From: Methylomonas rapida
Lineage (GTDB): Bacteria > Pseudomonadota > Gammaproteobacteria > Methylococcales > Methylomonadaceae
Assembly (NCBI RefSeq): GCF_024360925.2
Contig: NZ_CP113517.1
Location: forward strand, 930,001-994,000
Direction of reading: 5' to 3'
Length of the DNA: 64,000 bases
Under the pieces are notes generated by a model. That model made no database searches and had not been told where the DNA came from. It saw only the letters and a program-made list of their open reading frames with translations. The position numbers were made by a program, and so were the translations under genes. Below are positions 1,663 through 51,314 of the stretch, one piece after another (the stretch's first letter is position 1; each line of letters starts with the position of its first letter).

Positions 1663-3552
1663 ATGTGCGGCATAGTCGGTATTTTTGATATTCATGGCAG
1701 CAGCGAGATAGACCGCGATTTGTTGTCGCGAATGAACGAATCGCAATTCCATCGCGGCCCCGATGAAGGTGGCCTGCATACCGAGCCGGGCTTGGGCTTT
1801 GGTCATCGTCGCTTGTCCATCATCGACTTGTCCAGCGGTCAGCAGCCGATGCACAGTCAGGATGGCAATGTCGTGTTGACGTATAACGGTGAGGTTTACA
1901 ATTTTCCGGCACTGCGGCAGGAGCTGGAAGCGCTGGGCTTTGTTTTTAAAACCCATTGCGATACCGAAGTGATTCTTTATGCCTGGCAAGCCTGGGGCGA
2001 GGCTTGCGTCGAGCGCCTGCGCGGTATGTTTGCCTTTGCGATTTGGGATAGACCTCAGCAAACCTTATTTCTGGCCCGCGACCGCTTGGGTGTCAAACCG
2101 CTGTTTTATGCGCAGCTGCCGAATGGGCATTTCATTTTTGGCTCCGAGCTAAAGTCATTGAAGCAGCACCCGCTGCTACCCAAAACCATCGATCCGACTG
2201 CGATCGAGGATTACTTCGGCTTTGGTTATATCCCCGATCCCAAAACCATTTATCAGGGCGTTTATAAGCTGGAGCCTGGCTATTGTCTGACCATCCGACG
2301 TGGACAACAACATTGGCAACCGCGGCAATATTGGGATGTGAAATTCGACGTAGGGCAAAGCCGAAGTGTAGCCGAAGCTGGCGAGGAACTGATAGAGCGT
2401 CTGCGCGAAGCCGTGAAAATCCGTATGGTGGCAGATGTGCCGCTTGGAGCGTTTTTGTCCGGCGGTGTCGATTCCAGCGCGGTCGTGGCCATGATGGCGG
2501 GCATATCGGCCGATCCGGTCAATACCTGCTCGATTTCCTTTGGCGACCCCAAATTCAACGAATCGCAATTTGCCGCACAGGTGGCCGAGCGCTATCACAC
2601 CGCGCACCGTGTCGAACAAGTCGATCCCGACGATTTCAGTTTGATCGATCAATTGTCCGGTTTGTACGACGAGCCCTACGCCGACAGTTCGGCCTTGCCC
2701 ACCTATCGGGTGTGTGAGTTGGCGAAAAAACAGGTGACCGTGGTGTTGTCCGGCGATGGCGGTGATGAAAACTTGGCCGGTTACCGGCGTTATCGTTGGC
2801 ATACCTACGAAGAACGCATGCGGGCTTTGTTACCGGATGCGTTGCGGGTGCCGCTGTTTTCGACGCTGGGTCGTATCTATCCCAAACTGGATTGGGCGCC
2901 GAAAGTGTTGCGAGCCAAATCCACGCTGGAATCGATCGGGCGTGATTCCATGGCCGGGTATTTCCACAGCGTTTCGGTTCTGTCCAACGAAATGCGCGCT
3001 CAGTTGTTCAGCGAACAGCTAAAAAGCCAATTACAAGGCTATCAAGCCATTGAAGTATTCCGCCGCTACCGTCAACACGCCCCCGAACACCCGTTGGCCA
3101 TGGTGCAGTATCTGGATTTGAAAACCTATCTGGCCGGCGATATTTTGACCAAAGTCGACAGAGCCAGCATGGCGCACGCGTTGGAAGTGCGAGTGCCTTT
3201 GCTGGATCACAAACTGGTGGAATGGATGGCAACCTTGCCGCCGGACTTGAAATTGCATGGCCGCGAAGGTAAATATTTATTCAAAAAATCCTTGGAACGC
3301 TATTTGCCGAACGACATCCTGTATAGGCCAAAGATGGGCTTTGCCGTACCGCTTGCCAGTTGGTTCCGCGGGCCGTTAAAACAGAGGGTGCAAGACGCTT
3401 TGCTGGGCGATACCTTGCGGCAAACAGGCTGGTTCAACGAGGATTTTCTGCGGCACATGGTTAGCCAGCATCAATCCGGATTGCGAGATTACAGCGCTTC
3501 GATTTGGTCGTTGCTGATGTTCGAAGCGTTTTTGCGGAATAATCTTGAGTAA
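1663..3552 (+). CDS. Exosortase A-associated amidotransferase, asparagine synthase (glutamine-hydrolysing) type
   Basis: A 629-residue AsnB-like enzyme. The start is fixed by the catalytic Cys2 (MCGIVGIF), which must become N-terminal for glutaminase activity. Residues about 1-210 form the Ntn glutaminase domain (FHRGPDEGG, GHRRLSIIDLS). Residues about 240-600 form the ATP-PPase synthetase domain with the P-loop LSGGVDSS near residue 265 and later LSGDGGDE. Families of this kind next to XrtA glycosyltransferases (TIGR03108) are thought to amidate a sugar acid or modify the polysaccharide rather than make free asparagine; that role is inferred from context. It belongs to the same operon as the two upstream transferases. 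The next cluster gene is separated from it by a decayed transposase. Confidence 0.9.
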   Translation: MCGIVGIFDIHGSSEIDRDLLSRMNESQFHRGPDEGGLHTEPGLGFGHRRLSIIDLSSGQQPMHSQDGNVVLTYNGEVYNFPALRQELEALGFVFKTHCDTEVILYAWQAWGEACVERLRGMFAFAIWDRPQQTLFLARDRLGVKPLFYAQLPNGHFIFGSELKSLKQHPLLPKTIDPTAIEDYFGFGYIPDPKTIYQGVYKLEPGYCLTIRRGQQHWQPRQYWDVKFDVGQSRSVAEAGEELIERLREAVKIRMVADVPLGAFLSGGVDSSAVVAMMAGISADPVNTCSISFGDPKFNESQFAAQVAERYHTAHRVEQVDPDDFSLIDQLSGLYDEPYADSSALPTYRVCELAKKQVTVVLSGDGGDENLAGYRRYRWHTYEERMRALLPDALRVPLFSTLGRIYPKLDWAPKVLRAKSTLESIGRDSMAGYFHSVSVLSNEMRAQLFSEQLKSQLQGYQAIEVFRRYRQHAPEHPLAMVQYLDLKTYLAGDILTKVDRASMAHALEVRVPLLDHKLVEWMATLPPDLKLHGREGKYLFKKSLERYLPNDILYRPKMGFAVPLASWFRGPLKQRVQDALLGDTLRQTGWFNEDFLRHMVSQHQSGLRDYSASIWSLLMFEAFLRNNLE

Positions 3553-13309: not shown

Positions 13310-13469
13310 AAATTATGATTGCAGCTGACAGACATGGATTACAACGTTGTACGCCTGGACATCGTCGGGAGCTGGTAATCAGAATGAATAAAAGGTGCCC
13401 ATCGTTTTTGTGCTGGCCTGATTGGGACGAGTTTAAGGCTGTGTCAAAAAATATTGGGGCTTTATGTTT

Positions 13470-13540
13470 TTGCCACCCCCGTCGTGAGGCGGGCTCGGAA
13501 AACCACGGATCTTGCGCCTAACAAGATGGCCGGGTTGCTC
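13470..13540 (+). promoter_or_regulatory. Cyclic-di-GMP-I (GEMM)-like riboswitch candidate in PEP-CTERM leader
   Basis: The leader can fold as a three-way junction. A closing helix pairs GCCACCC (13472-13478) with GGGTTGC (13532-13538), with one mismatch. A P2-like hairpin pairs CCCGTC with GGCGGG around a GTGA tetraloop. A P3-like hairpin pairs ATCTT with AAGAT, with CCTAA in its loop. The joining stretch CTCGGAAAACCACGG and the 3' block AAGATGGCCGGGTTGC closely resemble conserved GEMM-I segments. The 5' strand is divergent, the usual GGCAAA is missing, and the first two helices compete for one base. This is a candidate, not a firm call. Confidence 0.42.
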
Positions 13541-13617
13541 TCTCGGAGTTGAGAGGTGCGAGTGTGTTCGCCTGCTTGGGGATGCACGTTTAAACAAAAG
13601 TTAGGAAAGGAAAAATT

Positions 13618-14505
13618 ATGACTAAAACAAAATTGGCATTGGCAATTGCGGGCGCGGTTCTTTCTGCAAGTGCTTCAACGGCTTCCGCGCATGTGATGTA
13701 CAACACTTTCACGACAGTCGCTGCGACTCAGACCGACGGTTGGACGCGTGTTTACGATGGTACTGACGCTGATGCCGTCGCTACAGGCCCTGAAAGTCAA
13801 GGTAACAAAGGTTCGCTGGTGCCTTGGTTGGGTACTTCAGGTGGTGCGCTGCCTTTTGGCTACACTGGAAGCTCTCATCTGAACTGGGCGGCAACCATTC
13901 ACGGCGCCGGAGATAGCCTGGAAGTATCTTCAGCCAATGCCTTGGAACATTATGGTTTTGCCGCGGAAATCGATACAGGTGGTGGTGCGTGGAATGATAA
14001 TGGGACGGACAAGGATGGAAATCTAACAACGACCGGTCCAACTGGCTGGAAGCATCAAACGGATATAGGTTTAATTAAATCTCTGGTCACCCAAAACGTC
14101 ACGTTGAATCTTTCAACGGTGAATGGCTTATTTAGCCGCTTTGGCGTCACGGTATTCGAAGGCATGGACACCAACACAGGCAACTATAGCCATCACGGCG
14201 CCTGGAATAATGCGTCGAATCCTTTCACTAAAGACAATCCATTCGGCACCACCGGTCTGACCAATATCGGTTACTCCGATAACGTCGATTCAATAAACGG
14301 ATATACCTTTTTGGCGGAAGCCGGCAAAGTGTATTCGATCTACTTGGGTGGGGTTGGTTTCTCGCGCTGGAATTCCGGTGTTGATGGATATGCGTTAAGC
14401 ATTACCTCTGCGCCGGTGCCGGTTCCGGGGGCCGTCTGGTTATTCGGTAGCGCGATCGCCGGTCTGGTCGGCTTCGGTCGTCGCAAAACAGCCGTTGCTG
14501 CATAA
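13618..14505 (+). CDS. PEP-CTERM sorting domain-containing exported protein
   Basis: A 295-residue secreted protein of unknown function. It has an N-terminal signal peptide (MTKTKLALAIAGAVLSASAS...SA, cleavage near residue 25). The body is rich in Gly, Thr, Asn and Trp, without a recognisable enzyme motif, and reads like an extracellular beta-rich domain. The C-terminus carries the sorting signal PVPVPGAVWLFGSAIAGL followed by VGFGRRK: the VPxP motif, a hydrophobic helix and a basic tail, the substrate pattern of exosortase/XrtA. It should be exported and processed in connection with the exopolysaccharide made by the cluster at 1-9 kb. The RBS AGGAAAGGA lies a few bases before the ATG. Confidence 0.88.
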   Translation: MTKTKLALAIAGAVLSASASTASAHVMYNTFTTVAATQTDGWTRVYDGTDADAVATGPESQGNKGSLVPWLGTSGGALPFGYTGSSHLNWAATIHGAGDSLEVSSANALEHYGFAAEIDTGGGAWNDNGTDKDGNLTTTGPTGWKHQTDIGLIKSLVTQNVTLNLSTVNGLFSRFGVTVFEGMDTNTGNYSHHGAWNNASNPFTKDNPFGTTGLTNIGYSDNVDSINGYTFLAEAGKVYSIYLGGVGFSRWNSGVDGYALSITSAPVPVPGAVWLFGSAIAGLVGFGRRKTAVAA

Positions 14506-48109: not shown

Positions 48110-48958
48110 ATGGCCAATATTTTAGTCATCGGTTGTGGCGACATTGGGTTCAGGGTAGCCTTGGCGTTACACCGACAAGGCCATCGTGTCACGGGCTTGA
48201 AAAGAGCGCCGCCATCGACTCCTGCCCCATTTTCTCTGATCGCCGCCGATATTCGCCAAGCCGCCACGCTGTCTAGTTTAGCGACTGACTTCGATCTGGT
48301 GCTGTTCATCGTTTCGGCGGGCAGTCGTCAGGCCGACGAATACCAGGCGCTTTATCAGGTAGGGTTGAATAATGTGCTGGCCCATTTCGCCAGTGCCGGT
48401 CGTTCGCCTCGCTGGTTCATGGTGTCTTCAACCAGTGTCTATGGGCAATTTCGTGGGGAATGGGTCGATGAAACAAGTCCCACTGAACCCAAAACAGCCA
48501 CCGCGCAAGCGCTGGTGGCCGCCGAGCAGCGCTTATGGCAGGACGATCCCAAGCATTGCGTCGTGCGATTTTCCGGAATCTATGGGCAGGGCCGCGATTG
48601 GTTGTTGCGGCGCGTGGCGAGCGGCGAAAGTATTCAGCGGCAACCGCCCAGTTATACCAATCGCATTCACCAGGATGATTGCGTGGCGGTTTTGCTGTTT
48701 TTGATTGAAAAGCAATTGGCGGGCGAGCGGTTGCAGCCTTGCTATCTAGCCAGTGACGATGATCCCGCGCCCCTGTGGGACGTGATGAATTGGATCGCCG
48801 AGCAATACGATTATCCACGTCCAACCGCCTTGTCAGTACCCGTCGATGCCAATCAGAACAAGCGCTGCCGCAATGACCGCCTGCACACGCTAGGGTATCG
48901 GTTTTTGTTTCCGAGCTACCGTGACGGGTATGGAAATCCCGCGAAAGAAAGCGCTTGA
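48110..48958 (+). CDS. NAD(P)-dependent epimerase-like protein (YeeZ type)
   Basis: A 282-residue atypical/extended short-chain dehydrogenase. The N-terminal nucleotide loop is ILVIGCGDIGFRVA (GxGxxG), with SSTSVYG and YGQGRDWLLRR further on. The substrate domain has TNRIHQDDCVAVL. YeeZ-like proteins have no proven substrate. It follows the membrane protein by 23 bases and may be read through from the copper cassette, but shows no functional link. Immediately downstream is the DnaA-box region. Confidence 0.82.
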   Translation: MANILVIGCGDIGFRVALALHRQGHRVTGLKRAPPSTPAPFSLIAADIRQAATLSSLATDFDLVLFIVSAGSRQADEYQALYQVGLNNVLAHFASAGRSPRWFMVSSTSVYGQFRGEWVDETSPTEPKTATAQALVAAEQRLWQDDPKHCVVRFSGIYGQGRDWLLRRVASGESIQRQPPSYTNRIHQDDCVAVLLFLIEKQLAGERLQPCYLASDDDPAPLWDVMNWIAEQYDYPRPTALSVPVDANQNKRCRNDRLHTLGYRFLFPSYRDGYGNPAKESA

Positions 48959-49034
48959 ACAAAAAATAGACAAATCGACTCAAACTATTGATTCGACTGC
49001 TTTAATCGATTGATTTCGCAAATTATCTACAAAC

Positions 49035-49406
49035 TTATCCACATCGGCTGGGGATAAACCTGGAAATGTCGGCTTCACTTTTGGATAACTGCCTTGCTCA
49101 GTGGCTGGCTCGTGTCTGTGTTACAGGTTGATTAAAAAATAGCCAAATTAATTCAACTTATTGTTTTAAATGGATTTAAATACCTGATTATCAGTTTTTC
49201 TACAGGCTTATCCACAGATTGTGGGGATAAATGTGTATTTTAAAAGCGCTTGGGTGTAAATTTATTTCAGGGTTCTGGCACGGGAATCGACCTGGTTCGG
49301 CAGGTTTGGAACAATCATTGTCATTGCTTTAATCGCTTGATTATCAATAAAAAATAGATAAGATGCTCAGCTTATCGACAGAGTTGTCCACAGAAAATGT
49401 GGATAA
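49035..49406. other. Cluster of DnaA boxes in AT-rich non-coding DNA, candidate oriC
   Basis: The gap 48959-49478 has no gene but holds three perfect TTATCCACA boxes (49035-49043 +, 49208-49216 +, 49398-49406 -). Five more have one mismatch: TGGGGATAA at 49049 and 49222, TTTGGATAA at 49080, TTATCGACA at 49372 and TTGTCCACA at 49384. They form about three modules, each with AT-rich words such as GATTATCA and GCTTTAATCG before the boxes. This is the composition expected of a replication origin or a DnaA-titrating site. No dnaA, dnaN or mnmG gene is in the window. Confidence 0.6.
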
Positions 49407-49478
49407 GTGGTAACTGTGATATGTCGTGTTGAAAACTGTGGTTGACTGGAGTCGGCCCGAGCTGGTGTAAAAACAAAG

Positions 49479-51314
49479 ATGGCAACGAAATCCAAGCAGA
49501 CTCATTTTCGCCGTGCCGACACGGCGCCGCCATTGCCGACCGATACGGTTGGCTTCATTTTGTACTGCCTGAAAAGGTTTCGGCGACTGATCTTTTTGAT
49601 GCTGTTGCTGGAAACCGGGCAGGCGGCGGGCGGCATTTTGGTGCCTTATGCGATCAAGGCCCTGATGGATAACGTTTACAGTCAGGTCGGCGCGGAATTT
49701 TCCTGGGAAGCGTTCAAGCAGCCGCTGCTGTTGCTGGTCGGGCTCAATGTAGCCGAGATTCTGTTCAGCCGCTCGAGCGGCGCGGTGCTGATCATCATTG
49801 GGCCGCGCATCCGGCAGCGTACCAGTCGTTTGCTGTATGCCTATCTACAGCAACATGCACCGCGTTATTTCGCCAATCATTTCGCCGGCAGCCTGGCGCA
49901 CCGGATCAGCGAAACCGCGCAAAGCGTCAATCATACGGCCTGGTCGGTATTGTTCGATTTCTGGCCCATCAGCGTGACGTTCACGGTTTCCGTGATTCTG
50001 CTGTTGAATGTGCATACCGGCTTGGGTGGATTCGTCGCCGGTTGGGTGTTTTTATACGTTGCTACTTCGTATTGGCTGGCGACACGTTGTCAGCCTTATG
50101 CGCAAAACTATGCGGCTACCCGAAGTTTGGTCAACGGTAAGATCGTCGATGCAGTGACCAATATGTTGAATGCCAAATTATTCGCCCGCCTGGCGCATGA
50201 GCGGGAGTATCTGGATGGTTTTCTGGAAACCGAGGTGAGGGAAGGCCAGCGTACCTTCTGGTATATGGAACGGGTGCGGTGGTTTCAGTTTACCGCGGCG
50301 GCACTGTTGAAAATTGGCACCATCGCTTATGCGCTGATGCTTTGGCGGCAGGCTGAGATCGGCGTCGGCGATTTTGCGATGAGTACCGGTCTTGCCTTGT
50401 TGATCATCGGCGATGCCCGTAACTTGACGCGGCGTTTTCTGGAGTTTTTCGAATATGTCGGCAATGTCGCCAATGGCATCGACACCATCGTCAAGCCGCA
50501 CGAAATCGTGGACGTCAGCCATGCCAAACCCTTGCAAGTCACGCAAGGGCGTATCGAGTTTCGCGACGTCTGTTTTGCCTATGAACCGGGGCGGCCGGTG
50601 TTCGAAAACCTCAACGTGGTCATCGAGCCTGGTCAACGCGTGGGCTTGGTCGGTTTTTCGGGGTCGGGCAAATCGACTTTCGTCAGCTTGATATTGCGCA
50701 ATTTCGAGCCGCAATCCGGTTGCATTCTGATTGATGGCCAGGACGTTTGTCAGATGACTCAGGATTCCCTGCATCAACAAGTCAGTCTGATTCCGCAAGA
50801 TCCCAGCCTGTTTCACCGCAGCTTGCAAGAGAACATCGCTTATGGACGCCCTTGGGCCAATGACGAACAGATTCGTGAGGCCGCGCGACTGGCGCATGCC
50901 GACGCTTTCATCGACGCGATGCCGGATGGCTATGACTCGCTGGTCGGCGAGCGCGGCGTCAAGTTGTCGGGAGGTCAACGCCAGCGTATTGCCATCGCTC
51001 GCGTGATGCTGAAGGATGCACCGATATTGATCCTGGATGAAGCGACTTCCAGCCTGGATTCCGTCACCGAAAAAACCATACAGGAAAATCTCGATAGAGT
51101 GATGGGGCGGAAAACGGTGATTGCAATTGCGCACCGCTTGTCGACCATTGCGCATCTGGACAGAATCCTGGTGTTCGATCAGGGGCGTATCGTCGAGGAC
51201 GGCAGTCATGAAGCCTTGCTGGCGCAAAAAGGTTTTTATCACCGCTTATGGGCCATGCAGGCCGGCGGTTTCTTGCCCGAGGAGCAGGAATGGCGTCCGT
51301 CCGATGAGGAGTGA
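49479..51314 (+). CDS. ABC transporter, fused permease/ATPase (MsbA-like exporter)
   Basis: A 611-residue half-transporter. The N-terminal membrane domain (about 1-340) has six helices beginning near FLMLLLETGQAAGGILVPYA. The ATPase domain (about 365-600) has Walker A VGFSGSGKSTF, signature KLSGGQRQRIAIARVM, Walker B ILILDEATSSLD and H-loop AHRLST. It would work as a homodimer exporting a lipid, peptide or drug. The start region has no strong ribosome site. Substrate unknown; MsbA itself cannot be asserted because family members are numerous. Confidence 0.87.
   Translation: MATKSKQTHFRRADTAPPLPTDTVGFILYCLKRFRRLIFLMLLLETGQAAGGILVPYAIKALMDNVYSQVGAEFSWEAFKQPLLLLVGLNVAEILFSRSSGAVLIIIGPRIRQRTSRLLYAYLQQHAPRYFANHFAGSLAHRISETAQSVNHTAWSVLFDFWPISVTFTVSVILLLNVHTGLGGFVAGWVFLYVATSYWLATRCQPYAQNYAATRSLVNGKIVDAVTNMLNAKLFARLAHEREYLDGFLETEVREGQRTFWYMERVRWFQFTAAALLKIGTIAYALMLWRQAEIGVGDFAMSTGLALLIIGDARNLTRRFLEFFEYVGNVANGIDTIVKPHEIVDVSHAKPLQVTQGRIEFRDVCFAYEPGRPVFENLNVVIEPGQRVGLVGFSGSGKSTFVSLILRNFEPQSGCILIDGQDVCQMTQDSLHQQVSLIPQDPSLFHRSLQENIAYGRPWANDEQIREAARLAHADAFIDAMPDGYDSLVGERGVKLSGGQRQRIAIARVMLKDAPILILDEATSSLDSVTEKTIQENLDRVMGRKTVIAIAHRLSTIAHLDRILVFDQGRIVEDGSHEALLAQKGFYHRLWAMQAGGFLPEEQEWRPSDEE

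Follow-up and report, generated by a model that had tools for sequence, protein, structure and literature searches.

Three tandem DARS-type modules between an epimerase gene and an ABC transporter gene of Methylomonas rapida: candidate sites of ATP-DnaA regeneration

What function might explain a dense cluster of DnaA boxes lying in a 520-bp non-coding gap between an epimerase-family gene and an ABC transporter gene, 21.3 centisomes away from dnaA? The window, i.e. the whole 64-kb stretch of DNA analysed here, corresponds to positions 930001-994000 of a single contig of 4,592,903 bp, and was screened for DnaA boxes using TTATNCACA as the search pattern with up to one mismatch allowed. The number of boxes in the window as a whole was ordinary (43, against a shuffle mean of 41.2), nine of them falling within the gap: three perfect boxes, beginning at 49035, 49208 and 49398, and six with one mismatch, beginning at 49023, 49049, 49080, 49222, 49372 and 49384. 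A first-pass annotation, made from the sequence alone, had counted the same three perfect boxes but only five with a single mismatch. Its claim that this density is far above chance was borne out, since 2000 dinucleotide shuffles of the same 520 bp gave a mean of 0.81 boxes and a maximum of five, by which chance clustering was ruled out. Within the window, no other cluster reached five such boxes per 600 bp, and a search of the same genome returned no further copy of the whole array, the next DNA match having an E value of 0.62. The gap is AT-rich (GC 0.383) and contains a family of 48-nt direct repeats in three copies, spaced 173 and 176 bp apart, which define three tandem modules and give substance to the "about three modules" initially described; the co-oriented epimerase-family and ABC transporter genes reported at its flanks were likewise recovered (Table 1). 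Elsewhere in the window, a c-di-GMP-I riboswitch scoring above the Rfam cut-off was observed at 13462-13542; it precedes a gene at 13618, the product of which gave no Pfam match.

Table 1. Features of the array and its flanks, in window coordinates; offsets are relative to box III and mismatches refer to the core pattern given in the text.
Feature	Position	Strand	Details
Epimerase-family gene, flanking	48110..48958	+	PF01370
Tandem array of three DARS-type modules, non-coding epimerase-ABC gap	48959..49478	+	
Fis consensus, module 1, -66	48957..48971	.	6 of 6; overlaps final 2 bases of epimerase stop codon
IHF consensus, module 1, -42	48981..48993	+	9 of 9
Second perfect IHF match, module 1	49003-49015		
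Module 1 core	49023..49057	+	box III 49023-49031(+), box II 49035-49043(+), box I 49049-49057(-); 1 mismatch
Additional one-mismatch DnaA box 3' of module 1	49080..49088	-	
Fis consensus, module 2, -66	49130..49144	.	6 of 6
IHF-like site, module 2, -42	49154..49166	+	8 of 9
Module 2 core	49196..49230	+	weak box III 49196-49204(+), box II 49208-49216(+), box I 49222-49230(-); 2 mismatches
IHF consensus, module 3, -42	49330..49342	+	9 of 9
Module 3 core	49372..49406	+	box III 49372-49380(+), box II 49384-49392(+), box I 49398-49406(-); 1 mismatch
GTTGAAAAC after module 3	49428..49436	+	recurs (or near form) in aligned orthologous arrays
ABC transporter gene, flanking	49479..51314	+	PF00664, PF00005

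Each module follows the same order, box III(+)-N3-box II(+)-N5-box I(-), which we expressed as the core pattern TTATCNACA-N3-TTATCCACA-N5-TGTGGATAA. As given in the available part of PMC5742627, DARS cores consist of three boxes with the same spacing in DARS1 and DARS2, box I being opposed to boxes II and III, and all three modules present this arrangement. The E. coli DARS1 core fits the pattern with three mismatches and that of DARS2 with five, at identical spacing, and E. coli oriC gave no core match at up to eight mismatches. When the arrays of different genomes were compared, identity was concentrated in the box columns (0.88-0.93), as opposed to the spacers (0.34-0.62) and most flanking stretches (0.25-0.50); the stretch from +56 to +67, which holds the additional DnaA box after module 1 and GTTGAAAAC after module 3, reached 0.69 and 0.56, respectively.

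The modules also share consensus sites for accessory proteins at fixed places. Using YAAN4TTGATW, a little more permissive than the published TAAN4TTGATW, an IHF consensus was found 42 bp upstream of box III in perfect form in 11 of the 24 modules of eight genomes, and within one mismatch in 20, although these modules are not mutually independent, the eight carriers being related. The mean IHF score at this offset was 8.29 of 9, against 3.27 (sd 0.85) across all offsets, and the next-best offset had just one of 24 modules within one mismatch. Three of the seven occurrences of this consensus in the 64 kb lie inside the array. A Fis consensus at -66 was present within one mismatch in 14 of the 16 modules 1 and 2 (nine perfect and five others) and in none of the eight modules 3; this offset ranks only fourth by mean score, and among the six top-scoring offsets it is alone in having perfect matches.

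The triple array was identified in eight Methylomonas genomes (G000, G007, G008, G009, G014, G016, G043 and G045). It lies directly 3' of the epimerase gene in seven of them, the 5-kb contig of G045 giving no epimerase match, and is followed by the ABC gene in G000, G007, G014, G043, G045, G008 and G016, the carriers whose flank was examined. Another 15 genomes of the genus have a close epimerase with no core (up to six mismatches) beside it. A tree of the epimerase joins one non-carrier, G015, to six of the seven carriers with modest support (80/72) and leaves G007 unplaced; inheritance of the array accompanied by loss appears the likely history. The distance from array to dnaA is 20.1 centisomes in G009, 35.3 in G014 and 37.7 in G007, the latter two arrays being on the other arm, and the modules point away from dnaA in all four arrays that could be placed, including that of the window. 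A conserved distance from oriC, as might be read from the similarity between the window array and E. coli DARS2 (20.6 centisomes), was rejected, as it fails in two of these four genomes.

Single cores are far more widespread, occurring with up to three mismatches in 56 of 61 near relatives and in 163 of 229 sampled Gammaproteobacteria, whereas a reversed-pattern control gave zero in the per-genome tables of both surveys. A strict two-module tandem pattern was found in at least 8 of 311 genomes of the order, from one of 50 genera, and in at least one of 369 genomes of the class sample, namely that of the window. These counts are lower bounds because the strict pattern is blind to other spacings and weaker boxes, and misses a four-copy array in G019 (L152 6474-6958). 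The cores of the latter are likewise in tandem within a non-coding gap, in 150-bp units, with no perfect IHF consensus within L152 6400-7150; unlike the triple array, it has different surrounding genes, presumably trpF and tilS, and its units are 97% alike, which suggests a recent origin. As this array is separate, tandem multiplication probably happened at least twice. G034 (L116) has three cores with 3-4 mismatches that at least partly coincide with open frames; we did not treat them as an array. In G101, G241, G120 and G255 we observed many DARS-type cores (6; 4+3) or core pairs less than 500 bp apart, the pairs being among the matches listed in G120 and G255 of the class sample.

Solo cores were less numerous in carriers than in non-carriers (mean 2.3 per genome, n=7, against 3.8, n=23; Mann-Whitney p 0.005, ignoring relatedness), in a comparison that leaves out G019, G045 and five other genomes less than 90% complete. 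The window's own genome has a solo core with four mismatches directly upstream of priA (L144 4166-4200, at about 257.7 kb), accompanied at -99 by an IHF site with one mismatch.

The protein components expected of a DARS are encoded in the same genome. Its DnaA is 61% identical to that of E. coli and conserves residues K178, R227, D269, R281, R285, L290 and R334, with G188 and L438 changed. Hda scores above one of the NCBIfam cut-offs (TIGR03420), IhfA above two and an IhfB-like protein above one of two, and a Fis homologue (46% over 50 residues) is encoded, as in E. coli, after a gene that we take to be dusB-like. Two IhfB-like genes were observed (L183 and L184, at about 2.77 and 3.04 Mb), whose proteins are identical over their shared length.

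Taken together, the region is probably a tandem array of three DARS that regenerate ATP-DnaA. This reading is supported by the match of box order, orientation and spacing to DARS1, DARS2 and the definition given in the accessible parts of PMC5742627 and PMC8682772, and by the IHF sites at -42, the Fis sites at -66, the conservation of the box columns, the empty reversed control, the conserved DnaA residues D269, R281, R285 and L290 and the genes for Hda, IHF and Fis. Against it count the place of the IHF site, which differs from that of DARS2 and of the solo cores, the lack of a Fis site in every module 3 and the fourth rank of the -66 offset, as well as the 15 same-genus genomes that lack the array beside their epimerase, the unconserved distance from oriC, gene neighbourhoods unlike those of DARS1 and DARS2, and the non-independence of the modules.

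From these features we infer protein binding, ADP release, timing and the effect of having three copies, in the following manner. In each module, ADP-DnaA would occupy boxes I and II head to head, with further DnaA on box III, which is weaker. From its site at -42, IHF may bend the DNA and thereby shape DnaA assembly, aided by Fis in modules 1 and 2. The two DnaA molecules facing each other on boxes I and II would loosen ADP until it departs, and apo-DnaA would then leave the core and reload ATP, so that more ATP-DnaA would be available for initiation at the dnaA-linked oriC. Three adjacent cores might raise this output or make it cooperative. More tentatively, and with somewhat greater doubt than trust on our part, the tandem array with IHF at -42 could be a distinct, multivalent DnaA-recharging device that, with its three cores acting together, would be the chief supplier of ATP-DnaA to one lineage of Methylomonas, partly in place of dispersed solo DARS.

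Other functions of a box-rich, AT-rich region have to be weighed against regeneration. The first-pass annotation had put forward oriC or a secondary replication origin, an idea to which dense DnaA boxes and the low GC content lend some appeal, and had proposed GC skew over the full chromosome as a check. Across the window, each of the 32 2-kb steps has positive skew, before and after the array alike, and a sample of 40 10-kb points along the chromosome places the switches of sign near coordinate 0 and near 2.3 Mb rather than at the array; 12 of 14 samples are positive on the right arm (all but those at 20 and 1495 kb) and 22 of 26 negative on the left (all but those at 3105, 4025, 4255 and 4485 kb). 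The dnaA frame starts at coordinate 1, and two AT-rich, oriC-like groups of DnaA boxes with a repeat that we take to resemble the DnaA-trio lie close to it, at about 4588.7-4588.9 kb and in the gap between dnaA and a gene presumed to be dnaN (L140, L141); they are possibly a bipartite origin. An oriC would be expected at the skew switch and with an unwinding or DnaA-trio element; no such trio-like repeat was found in the array, which is also missing beside the epimerase in the 15 same-genus genomes mentioned above, and the origin hypothesis retains hardly any credibility.

Nor does the fact that, in the window, the array immediately precedes the ABC gene argue strongly for a DnaA-responsive control region of the transporter (or of the epimerase), which we regard as quite improbable: in G016 the array keeps its place by the epimerase but some 640 bp separate its end from the start of the ABC gene (L048), 60 of 64 ABC loci have no core (up to six mismatches) in their upstream DNA (up to 1.2 kb, less in some), and a single promoter-like match was found, against a shuffle mean of 1.6. 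The main rival is a titration sink or datA-like locus, in which strong boxes would hold DnaA, or IHF would promote DnaA-ATP hydrolysis, so as to lower active DnaA; we judge it unlikely, if clearly less so than the two preceding alternatives. Nine boxes per 520 bp and IHF sites between the box groups are in its favour, and the available part of PMC12371093 reports that chromosomal boxes exert titration in E. coli. A sink, however, has no need of the strict III-II-I triplet, which is the layout of DARS. The locus resembles datA, which likewise lies away from oriC and combines an IHF site with several DnaA boxes (PMC5742627, in the part available), and to this extent the datA-like reservoir of the first-pass annotation survives, as a DnaA control locus away from the origin; its box geometry, in contrast, is that of the DARS core, for which the E. 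coli datA region offers a best match of seven mismatches. The two also differ in their predicted outcome, in that datA promotes ATP hydrolysis and not ADP release. The datA locus is defined by its box 7-box 2-IHF-box 3 arrangement and by stimulated DnaA-ATP hydrolysis.

If the regeneration of ATP-DnaA is indeed its role, this conserved, naturally triplicated and IHF-phased methanotroph DARS would constitute a natural test of core number and IHF position against ATP-DnaA supply. The strict core pattern, together with its clean reversed control, provides a simple means of mapping DARS-type sites across Gammaproteobacteria. What is known of DARS comes largely from two loci of E. coli, each with a single core, and our searches of the open-licence literature returned no description of a tandem DARS. 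We regard a tandem arrangement with its IHF sites at -42 as new, the DARS-type locus itself being of a known kind.

With neither of the E. coli loci is the array orthologous, its neighbours being an epimerase and an ABC transporter gene and not the uvrB/bio or mutH region. The DARS1 core (NC_000913, about 813107-813141, after bioD) shares its spacing but is single, and no IHF requirement is reported for it in the available part of PMC4245941. Solo DARS-type cores of Methylomonas and its relatives have the same core pattern and likewise an IHF consensus upstream of box III, but it lies between -96 and -100, where 15 of the 38 cores match it perfectly and 23 do so with no more than one mismatch, and none has a perfect match at -42; L125 (duplicate context) and L126 (upstream sequence absent) were left out of this comparison. 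A further parallel is the DARS2 core (NC_000913, about 2969135-2969169, between rppH and ygdT/mutH), which has the same box order, orientation and spacing, with an IHF consensus on the box III side and Fis further out (PMC4245941, in the part available). It differs in its neighbours, in having one core rather than three, and in the computed places of these sites, Fis at -125 and, on the same strand as the core, an IHF site with one mismatch at -87, against -66 and -42 in the array. In promoting ADP release, opposing boxes I and II are described in the accessible part of PMC8682772 as assisting a head-to-head DnaA dimer. DARS2 loses strength when its IHF or Fis site is shifted by 5-10 bp, according to the same part of PMC4245941, so that the IHF and Fis geometry of the array represents a real difference from DARS2.
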